DNA of 64,000 bases from positions 1,612,001 through 1,676,000 of the forward strand of contig NZ_JACHMW010000001.1 of NCBI RefSeq assembly GCF_014205115.1, read 5' to 3'. Shown piece after piece: positions 27,141-61,894 of the stretch. This stretch comes from Micrococcus endophyticus. GTDB taxonomy: Bacteria; Actinomycetota; Actinomycetes; Actinomycetales; Micrococcaceae. The notes under the pieces were generated by a model. That model was given only the letters and a program-made list of their open reading frames with translations, was not told the origin of the DNA and searched no databases. The translations under genes were made by a program, and so were the position numbers. Every line of letters starts with the position of its first letter. Position 1 is the first letter of the stretch.

Positions 27141-29946
<2,806 letters not shown>

Positions 29947-29971
29947 CCCCTCGCCGGGGCTCCCTCCCTTC

Positions 29972-30032
29972 GACCGACGCGCAGCGACATCACCGCCGTT
30001 CCGAACGGCGGTGATGTCGCTGCGCGTCGGTC
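29972..30032. repeat. Palindromic repeat, copy 1 (29-bp arms)
   Basis: Perfect inverted repeat: 29972-30000 pairs with 30004-30032 around a 3-nt centre (CCG). The core is GCAGCGACATCACCG and its complement. It lies between the convergent stops of gdhA and a hypothetical gene, so it can terminate both. Same family as 30510-30570 and 31770-31828. Confidence 0.95.
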
Positions 30033-30035
30033 CTT

Positions 30036-30452
30036 TCAGGAGGGCAGCGCGGCGCGGCGCAGGGCGACGACGCCGCACGCCAGCAGCGCCAGCTCGCCCG
30101 CCCACTGGATCCACACCAGCCCGATCCCGTCCGGCGGCACCCCGGACATCACCCGCCCGGCGGAGGCGACGGCCTGGGCGAGCAGCGCCGCGACGATCAG
30201 GCCCGTGACGCTTCGCCGGTCCGGACGCGAGCCGATCATCAGCGCCGCGACCGCTCCCAGCAGCGGCAGCGCCGTCAGCACCCCCTGGGCCAGGACGAAG
30301 GGGACGGCGTCGGCGGCCAGCCGGTCCGGCGGGATCAGCAGGGGCGCGAGCAGCCCGCCCGGGAACACGGCCGCCCAGCTCAGGCTTGCCACCATCAGGA
30401 GGATGCGGTCCCGCGATGCGCGGCCGGACGGGGACGGCGATTCGGGCGTCAT
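30036..30452 (-). CDS. Hypothetical four-helix membrane protein
   Basis: 138 residues, not recognised. Four hydrophobic segments (about 17-38, 50-70, 81-100, 110-130) with a short Ser/Pro-rich N-terminus and a basic end; the layout resembles small DoxX-like or DUF-type membrane proteins without a distinctive motif. ATG 30452 is preceded by TACTGT at 6 nt: leaderless. The gene is bracketed by palindrome copies 1 and 2, one 4 bp past its stop and one about 60 bp before its start, so gene plus repeats may be one inserted cassette. Confidence 0.7.
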   Translation of the reverse strand: MTPESPSPSGRASRDRILLMVASLSWAAVFPGGLLAPLLIPPDRLAADAVPFVLAQGVLTALPLLGAVAALMIGSRPDRRSVTGLIVAALLAQAVASAGRVMSGVPPDGIGLVWIQWAGELALLACGVVALRRAALPS

Positions 30453-30458
30453 GGCCGA

Positions 30459-30464
30459 ACAGTA
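30459..30464 (-). promoter_or_regulatory. -10 box TACTGT, leaderless hypothetical gene
   Basis: TACTGT on the minus strand, 6 nt before ATG 30452. Confidence 0.55.
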
Positions 30465-30509
30465 CCGCCGGCCTCACACCGGGCGGGGCGGCCCCGCCCG
30501 AGTTCGCCC

Positions 30510-30570
30510 GACCGACGCGCAGCGACATCACCGCCGTTCCGACCGGCGGTGATGTCGCTGCGCGTCGGTC
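30510..30570. repeat. Palindromic repeat, copy 2 (27-bp arms)
   Basis: 30510-30536 pairs with 30544-30570 around a 7-nt centre. Same core as copy 1. It lies between divergent genes, so termination alone cannot explain it. Confidence 0.95.
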
Positions 30571-30713
30571 TTTCCAGGAGGGCAGCGCATGGGCACGACG
30601 GGGACGCTGCGCGGTCGTCGTCGGCTCCTGCACAGGGGCGCTCTCCCGGCGCGTCGACCACGGGCGCCGTTCCCCACGACGACGGCGGCCCACCGGGTCC
30701 GCACACTGGCGGC

Positions 30714-31811
30714 ATGACCGCGCTCGCCGACGTCGCCGACCTCCGCCCCGGGACCGGGCCGCTGCTGTGCGCGGCCCGCCGGGAGGACCTGGCCGCCCGA
30801 CGCCGACTCGAGCGCGCCTGGACCCGCGGCGACCTCGTCCGCCTCGCCGCGGGCGTGTACCTGCCGGCGCCCACCTGGACGGCGCTGAGCCCGTGGGACC
30901 GGTCGACCGCGTCCGCGGCCGCCCTGGCGCTCGCCCGGCCGGCCACCGTGTTCACCGGGCTGACCGCCGCCCGACTGCGGGGGCTGCCCGTCGCCCTCGA
31001 GCTGCCCGCCCTCGACCTGCGGGCCACCTCGCCCGGGCACCGCGGCGCCGCCCCGCTCACGTCCCGGCCTTTCTCTCCCGCACTGCTCGCCACGGGTGGT
31101 CGACTCCCCCGCCCGCCGCGACGTCGTCCCCGGTGGGGCCTCCCGCAGGCGCCGAGCACGGCGCCGGAACCGGTGGAGATCCGCCTCTCGGACGGCACCG
31201 GCCTCGGCTGGGGCCTGGCCGACGCGTCGGCCACGCTGCTCCTGGTGCTGGGCGCGGCGACGCCGTTCCGCGATGCCGTCGCGCCCCTGGACGTCCTGCT
31301 CGCCACCCACCCGGAGGCGTAGTCCTGGGCGCAGGCCGCCGAGGAGGCCCTGCCGACCCGGGCCGCGCGGGAGAGGCTCGAGCGCACCTGGTCCTTCGCG
31401 GCGGCCGGGTCCGAGTCCGCCGGGGAGTCCTACAGCCGCGCCCTGATGCACGAGCTCGGGTTCGCGGCGCCGACGGCACTGCAGCACCGGGACGCGACGG
31501 GCCGGGAGGTGGCCCGAACCGACTTCTGGTGGGCGGACGCGCGCGTGGCCGGGGAGTTCGACGGGATCGGCAAGTACGATCTCGGCCTGCACCGCGGGGA
31601 CGACGCCGCCCGCCGCGCGAGCATCCGGAGGGAGAAGGAGCGGGAGGTCGCCCTGCAGCTGGTCACGCGCGCAGTCGCGCACTGGACCTGGGAGGACCTC
31701 AGGGCGCCCGAGCGGCTGGCCCGGATCCTCACCGCGGCGGGCGTGCCGCGAACGGTTCGCCCCGAACCGACCGACGCCCAGCGACATCACCGTCGGGCAG
31801 AACGGCGGTGA
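30714..31811 (+). pseudogene. AbiEi-like winged-helix / DUF559-like nuclease-fold protein, interrupted by an amber stop
   Basis: The frame opens at ATG 30714 (CACACT 6 nt upstream, leaderless spacing). It encodes an AbiEi antitoxin-like winged helix (ARREDLAARRRLERAWTRGDLVRLAAGVYLP, then TGLTAARLRGLPV) and an intermediate domain to TAG 31320-31322. The same frame continues without another stop through SWAQAAEEAL and a DUF559/Vsr-like restriction-fold domain (SRALMHELG, ARTDFWWAD, EFDGIGKYD, IRREKEREVAL). A single C-to-T change in a CAG codon would explain the TAG. These AbiEi-DUF559 fusions are common in actinobacteria and are not proven toxin-antitoxin units; no AbiEii gene is nearby. The last about 13 codons and stop come from palindrome copy 3. 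Amber readthrough or a sequence error cannot be excluded. Confidence 0.8.
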
Positions 31812-31828
31812 TGTCGCTGGGCGTCGGT
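31770..31828. repeat. Palindromic repeat, copy 3 (23-bp arms)
   Basis: 31770-31792 pairs with 31806-31828, centre 13 nt. Compared with copies 1 and 2, GCGCAG has become GCCCAG on the left and CTGCGC has become CTGGGC on the right, a matched change that keeps the stem. Overlaps the 3' end of the interrupted reading frame. Confidence 0.95.
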
Positions 31829-31865
31829 TGTTCCTCGGGTGCGGGAGGGGACCGCGCGGCCCCGA

Positions 31866-32312
31866 TCAGCCCTGCAGCGCCGCCCGCTGCTCGGGGGTCA
31901 CCCGCACGGGCCGTCCGGTCGCGCCGTCCACGAACACCATCACGGAGGAGGCGGTGGCGCAGAGGGTGTCGTCCACGCCGTCGTGCAGGGCGTAGCCCAC
32001 GTGCACGGAGGCCGCCTTCACGGCCTCCACGCTCACGACGACGCGCAGCGGCACCGGCCGGTACGGCATCTGGGCGCGGTACTTCACGGTGTGCTCGGAG
32101 ATGAACGTGCGCACGCCGGGGGCCACGCCCTCCAGCAGGTCGATCGGCGGGGCCTCTCCCCCGCCGGCGCCCGTGTTGGCGGGCACGCCGAAGGCCGCCA
32201 CGCGGGCCTCCTCGAGCAGCTGCACCACGGCGATGTTGTTGATGTGGCCGTACGCGTCCATGTCCGCCCAGCGCAGGGGGATGCGGACCTCGACGGCGCG
32301 GGGCCCGGTCAT
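31866..32312 (-). CDS. Acyl-CoA thioesterase, hotdog fold (4HBT)
   Basis: 148 residues. Single hotdog domain: RWADMDAYGHINNIAVVQLLEEAR contains the catalytic Asp of 4-hydroxybenzoyl-CoA thioesterase-like enzymes and the N-N helix. A KYRAQMPYRPVPLRVVVSV strand and a C-terminal RVTPEQRAAL follow. Cleaves acyl-CoA thioesters in the cytoplasm; the chain preference is unknown. The ATG overlaps the TGA of the upstream App1 gene (ATGA), so the two are co-translated. Confidence 0.9.
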   Translation of the reverse strand: MTGPRAVEVRIPLRWADMDAYGHINNIAVVQLLEEARVAAFGVPANTGAGGGEAPPIDLLEGVAPGVRTFISEHTVKYRAQMPYRPVPLRVVVSVEAVKAASVHVGYALHDGVDDTLCATASSVMVFVDGATGRPVRVTPEQRAALQG

Positions 32313-42241: not shown

Positions 42242-42287
42242 ACGACGGCGCCCCTCACCTGCCCGCGCAGGTGAGGGGCGCCGTCGT
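42242..42287. terminator. Bidirectional hairpin, 21-bp perfect stem
   Basis: 42242-42262 pairs exactly with 42267-42287, loop CCGC, between the convergent stops of fdhA and a DUF202 gene. No T-run. Confidence 0.85.
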
Positions 42288-61824: not shown

Positions 61825-61894
61825 CTTTCGTTCGGGAAATCGTCGTTACCATCCCGTCCTCCTCGCCGGGTGACGACGATTTCCCGAGCGAAAA
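61825..61894. repeat. Imperfect inverted repeat, second palindrome family
   Basis: Arms 61825-61850 and 61869-61894 match at 23 of 26 positions, with core CGGGAAATCGTCGT, and an 18-nt loop. It is markedly more AT-rich than its surroundings and unlike the plain GC terminators. Lies between the HD-protein stop and the groEL terminator. Confidence 0.85.

Follow-up and report, generated by a model that had tools for sequence, protein, structure and literature searches.

The window analysed here, a 64,000-nt stretch of the Micrococcus endophyticus genome, carries three long palindromes of one family (family 1), which lie together with a small hydrophobic gene and a disrupted nuclease gene between the genes for glutamate dehydrogenase and a thioesterase-like protein:

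28606..29946, + strand: glutamate dehydrogenase gene, left neighbour of the unit
29972..30032, no strand: palindrome copy 1 (family 1), 61 nt, 30-nt arms, 100% complementary
30036..30452, - strand: small hydrophobic gene, 138 aa, between copies 1 and 2, its 3' end duplicated beside copy 2
30510..30570, no strand: palindrome copy 2 (family 1), 61 nt, 30-nt arms, 97% complementary
30714..31757, + strand: AbiEi-like plus Vsr-like nuclease gene (family 1), a pseudogene with an in-frame TAG at 31320-31322
31769..31829, no strand: palindrome copy 3 (family 1), 61 nt, 26-nt arms, 96% complementary, with a paired G-C swap
31866..32312, - strand: thioesterase-like gene, right neighbour of the unit

All three palindromes had been reported in the first-pass annotation, and all are present, with arms slightly different in length (30, 30 and 26 nt) from the 29, 27 and 23 given there. 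The compensatory change that it described in copy 3 was confirmed (GCGCAGC...GCTGCGC versus GCCCAGC...GCTGGGC), as were the gene contexts, with converging neighbours at copies 1 and 3 and diverging neighbours at copy 2. Within copy 1, the motif GACCG (29972-29976) and its variant CACCG (29991-29995) lie 19 nt apart, and the pair is mirrored on the right arm. The palindrome core is non-random in the window, since its 13 occurrences at up to two mismatches, against 3.3 expected, were reached by none of 100 window shuffles. Copy 1 has a folding energy of -63 kcal/mol (z = -13), and the window copies as a group fold at z = -11 to -13 relative to shuffled sequence. An Rfam scan of the window returned a tRNA as its sole match, with no known RNA at the palindromes. 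Other long inverted repeats in the window, at 807-869, 42242-42287 and 61826-61893, are unrelated in sequence to family 1.

Copies 1 and 2 share a common stretch of 80 nt (29971-30050 and 30509-30588; 96%), which takes in the 3' end of the small membrane gene. A search of ten other Micrococcus genomes gave no homologue of this gene, nor did Pfam give a match, and it looks as if it became trapped between two palindromes. In copy 3, a TGA at 31809-31811 now ends the reading frame of the nuclease pseudogene, and a TGA in the arm of another family-1 palindrome (2487-2547 of locus L067) likewise ends an upstream oxidoreductase gene; in both cases, therefore, the stop codon and a short, new C-terminal end come from the palindrome.

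The nuclease gene had been annotated as a broken AbiEi/DUF559 gene, and this proved correct: it has 70% identity to an intact relative, at full length, and is interrupted by a single in-frame TAG. The gene is intact at the same place in three other Micrococcus genomes, framed by two palindromes in each. An AbiEii nucleotidyltransferase toxin gene is absent beside the window copy, whose neighbours are glutamate dehydrogenase, the small unmatched gene, the thioesterase-like gene and APP1. According to a structure model (pLDDT 93, pTM 0.90) and its fold matches in the PDB, the product has two parts, an AbiEi-like DNA-binding half and a Vsr-like nuclease half. Foldseek matched AbiEi (6y8q, probability 0.99), Rv2827c (1zel, 0.84) and Vsr (1vsr, 0.75), with modest E-values, the best being 8.5e-3. 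In the model, residues 238-329 follow the order helix, three strands, helix, strand, which fits a predicted PD-(D/E)XK core, and the C-terminal domain has a conserved pattern, D...EFDG..K, with D274, E285, D287 and K291 invariant in an alignment of 55 relatives. With Pfam, a few members showed weak signals for AbiEi and DUF559, DUF559 being sub-threshold in one of them, and PADLOC gave weak AbiEi matches; NCBIfam had no match in the six members tested, nor did a sequence search of solved structures. Carriage by phages or plasmids was considered and rejected, with no relative in the viral contigs searched and two weak, partial ones among plasmids.

Using a covariance model built from 22 family-1 copies, we identified ten clear members in the 2.71-Mb genome from which the window was taken and, in other Micrococcus species, about eleven at most; almost every member is exactly 61 nt long. 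These counts derive from the search. The palindrome is not confined to the window, and its copies have covarying pairs. Across the genus, 11 of 27 pairs have changed on both sides, with a covariation score of 0.159 versus 0.078 for shuffled alignments, where the cells count sequences and not events. The earlier suggestion that the stem is maintained by selection or copied as a unit is upheld insofar as the covariation is real, but selection alone does not follow from it, as hairpin selection and arm-to-arm copying fit the pattern alike. The idea of a REP/MITE-like element or of cassette ends holds in that a dispersed family frames an AbiEi/DUF559-type gene; the tyrosine transposase proposed as its partner is not there. 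No Y1_Tnp domain (PF01797) was found in the genome, and a RAYT was accordingly rejected as the partner of the palindromes. A role as a DNA-uptake sequence was also rejected: with 16 occurrences in the genome, almost always within palindromes, the half-site GCGACATCACCG is far too infrequent. Two Micrococcus genomes, G068 and G154, have some palindromes of the family and no detectable nuclease, which indicates that palindromes persist without it. The lone copies examined are intergenic, with one overlapping a gene end.

The window locus is not the only unit of its kind in this genome. At 1893-1894.6 kb, a second unit has an open nuclease frame that is flanked on both sides by a palindrome of its own (family 2), of which seven full-length lone copies and one partial copy lie elsewhere. 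Cellulomonas triticagri carries a cognate palindrome on both flanks of its nuclease gene and at three other full-length places, and this palindrome had no full-length match in nine other genomes. In Micrococcus G166, every one of several nuclease genes is paired with a different palindrome type, two of which also occur as lone copies.

Searching by palindrome sequence, we did not find family 1 outside Micrococcus; matches in other genera of the bacterial family look like chance. The wider association emerged only from a search that started with the gene. Relatives of the window gene are present in 9 of the 11 Micrococcus genomes searched, and long palindromes adjoin most of them, often on both sides, with a sequence that differs for each gene lineage. 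When named genomes were scanned with the protein alignment, 80 loci were found, of which 79 were scored; they span Micrococcus, Arthrobacter, Pseudarthrobacter, Nesterenkonia, Cellulomonas, Naasia, Williamsia, Propionicimonas and others. Counting palindromes with a score of at least 15, we found 59 close to the genes (up to 600 nt away, 94.7 kb in all) versus 11 in the 371 kb beyond (binomial p ~ 3e-30), and a stricter detector gave 38 near the genes versus 3 further out. Furthermore, a flank comparison that was independent of any palindrome search showed that the left and right flanks match each other at 51 of 78 loci, versus 1 of 78 control pairs taken further out (Fisher p ~ 1e-19). In total, 61 of the 79 loci show a palindrome or a flank match and 18 show neither. 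Protein distance and palindrome distance were correlated over 42 loci (Mantel r = 0.54, reached in 0 of 2000 permutations), and related nucleases thus keep related palindromes.

The arms have a common anatomy despite their different sequences. Each arm, of about 27-29 nt, has a motif of 5 to 10 nt at its outer end that is repeated next to the loop. Of 31 non-redundant palindromes, 17 have the two occurrences exactly 19 nt apart, compared with a mean of 0.7 and a maximum of 5 in 1000 trials with shuffled arms. Family 1 has GACCG / CACCG as its motif, at this 19-nt spacing. Family 2 is laid out as GGATCGACGG, 9 nt, GGATCGACGG, a 5-nt loop and the mirror image; here the motif is nearly invariant and the first three spacer positions flip as pairs between TTT/AAA and AAA/TTT. 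A conserved motif beside a spacer that is constrained mainly to pair suggests that the sequence is read and that symmetry or a hairpin is needed as well. At two loci, in Williamsia deligens (L210) and Galbitalea (L221), further spaced copies of the motif lie beside the palindromes, like an iterated array.

Comparison between species revealed gain and loss at several sites. The site next to gdhA, which in the window holds three palindromes together with the nuclease pseudogene and the additional small gene, has no palindrome in G154, G179 and G068, a single palindrome in G014, a palindrome-nuclease-palindrome arrangement in G108, G044 and G139, and a shortened nuclease with one palindrome in G166. 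At the ackA site, a family-1 palindrome is present in two species, a palindrome of another type occupies the same spot in one, and three have none. At position 1306078 the palindrome is found in the window's own genome and is absent from seven relatives, which is most simply read as a gain. In the best pair of occupied and empty sites, the 941-kb site and its 95% identical counterpart in G139, the latter lacks about 72 nt (the palindrome and about 11 nt more), the direction of the change being ambiguous. No clean target-site duplication was seen at the occupied and empty sites compared. At the orthologs of the 2239-kb site in G044 and G139 (L261 and L262), about 1.6 kb of extra DNA, with no long hairpin detected in it, lies where other species have the palindrome.

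The explanation that we favour, to which we would give odds of about two in three, is that a chromosomal family of AbiEi-like plus Vsr-like (PD-(D/E)XK-type) nucleases has the palindromes as its cognate sites, and that the lone palindromes are non-autonomous copies. Binding, cutting and nuclease-driven dispersal are all inferred. The autonomous unit would be palindrome, nuclease gene, palindrome; lone palindromes would be non-autonomous copies of the same site, and the window would represent a unit whose nuclease has been killed by the TAG and in which an extra gene was caught between two palindromes. Since the paired inverted repeats to which AbiEi proteins bind are 23 bp long (PMC7319586), close in size to one arm, the AbiEi-like half is a natural candidate for reading the palindrome. 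In the proposed scheme it would read the motif that is present twice, 19 nt apart, in each arm, with two protein molecules, one per arm, on double-stranded DNA or on an extruded hairpin. The nuclease part would then cut or nick at the palindrome, and repair might copy the palindrome, or a gene between two palindromes, into new intergenic places.

The strongest rival is that the palindromes are operators through which the AbiEi-like half autoregulates, the scattered copies forming a small regulon while the nuclease part acts elsewhere. It owes this rank to the AbiEi relatives, antitoxins that autoregulate through the paired 23-bp inverted repeats in their promoters (PMC7319586), and the left palindrome is usually found about 150-230 nt upstream of the matched gene start. 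However, the gene also has a matching palindrome on its downstream side, and lone copies often (4 of 7 in family 1) sit where two genes converge, an arrangement in which a promoter would not be expected. The spacer positions covary in pairs, which a double-stranded operator does not need. These three observations speak against operators as the whole story, as does the copy gain at 1306078, and we regard this reading as unlikely.

A passive role for the palindromes, as recombination-prone sites that gain and lose cassettes, the nuclease among them, without the nuclease acting on them, is less probable again. It would accommodate the gdhA locus, where, depending on the species, the number of palindromes ranges from 0 to 3 and that of the genes they enclose from 0 to 2, and also the unrelated small gene lying between copies 1 and 2 with its 80-nt duplication. 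Nevertheless, it leaves unexplained both the repeated framing of one nuclease family by palindromes of different sequence and the co-divergence of protein and palindrome. Least probable, by a little, are bidirectional terminators copied by recombination with an incidental link to the nuclease: the hairpins are very stable, several lie between converging genes and the palindrome-less gdhA site of G154 has an ordinary terminator-like hairpin instead, but the palindromes are enriched on both sides of one gene family relative to about 370 kb of neighbouring DNA, their sequence is gene-specific with a 19-nt motif repeat, most family-2 copies lie between tandem genes, and the window copies lack the T run after the stem of an intrinsic terminator.

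Cognate sites of a nuclease, our preferred reading, have their closest parallel in the REPtrons (RAYT / TnpA-REP with REP), in which a coding sequence lies between two palindromes and non-autonomous copies are scattered (PMC2817692, PMC8266576, PMC3733652). The likenesses extend from the framing of the gene by two palindromes of one family and the solo copies scattered through the genome to gene-specific palindromes that co-evolve with the protein, a chromosomal gene in low copy and the retention of complementary stem changes. The enzyme, however, is AbiEi-like plus Vsr-like and not a Y1 HUH (IS200/IS605-like) transposase, PF01797 being absent from the genome, and neither the family-1 nor the family-2 alignments, with their flanks, contain a GTAG or similar head. 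The palindromes are also longer, at about 60 nt versus 20-40 in REPs, they repeat a motif 19 nt apart within each arm, and they number about ten per genome, whereas REPs often number hundreds. Because it lacks both the defining enzyme and the GTAG head, the arrangement is not a REPtron; at most, by analogy, the framed-nuclease system may work like one.

Vsr acts at T:G mismatches in methylation sites. The C-terminal domain here has a Vsr-like fold with conserved acidic and lysine residues, as in Vsr and DUF559 nucleases, but unlike Vsr the family has a DNA-reading half of its own and its own palindromes. The N-terminal half has the fold of the AbiEi of type IV toxin-antitoxin systems (6y8q, Rv2827c); in contrast to those antitoxins, it is fused to a nuclease, its palindromes flank both sides of the gene and are scattered as well, and the window copy has no AbiEii neighbour. 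Like MITEs and small insertion sequences, the system has short non-autonomous copies alongside autonomous gene-bearing units, but each end is a complete palindrome, not half a terminal inverted repeat. The sites compared showed no clean target duplication.

A palindrome-framed nuclease gene with scattered lone copies is a widespread and apparently undescribed arrangement in Actinobacteria; the literature searched, in most cases titles and abstracts, does not describe a nuclease-palindrome link. Whether it forms a separate, non-HUH class, in which a 60-nt palindrome is recognised and spread by its own fusion of an AbiEi-type reader with a Vsr-type nuclease, is in our judgement evenly poised; REP-like biology would then have arisen at least twice, from unrelated enzymes. 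If the favoured explanation is right, uncharacterised actinobacterial AbiEi/DUF559-type genes gain a partner sequence and a testable job, and a lifestyle of gene plus scattered palindromes exists independently of HUH transposases. It would also explain families of long intergenic hairpins otherwise annotated as terminators. Each gene would name its own substrate, the adjoining palindrome, so that recognition is directly testable with gene/palindrome pairs and swaps.

Finally, a tRNA gene is the direct neighbour, at about 110-230 nt, of four of the seven lone family-2 palindromes (L276, L278, L279 and L280, near 114, 1869, 1025 and 982 kb of the genome, respectively), and the family-1 copy at L067 also has a tRNA gene as its neighbour. 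This adjacency may reflect a target preference, or merely intergenic space that is rich in tRNA genes.
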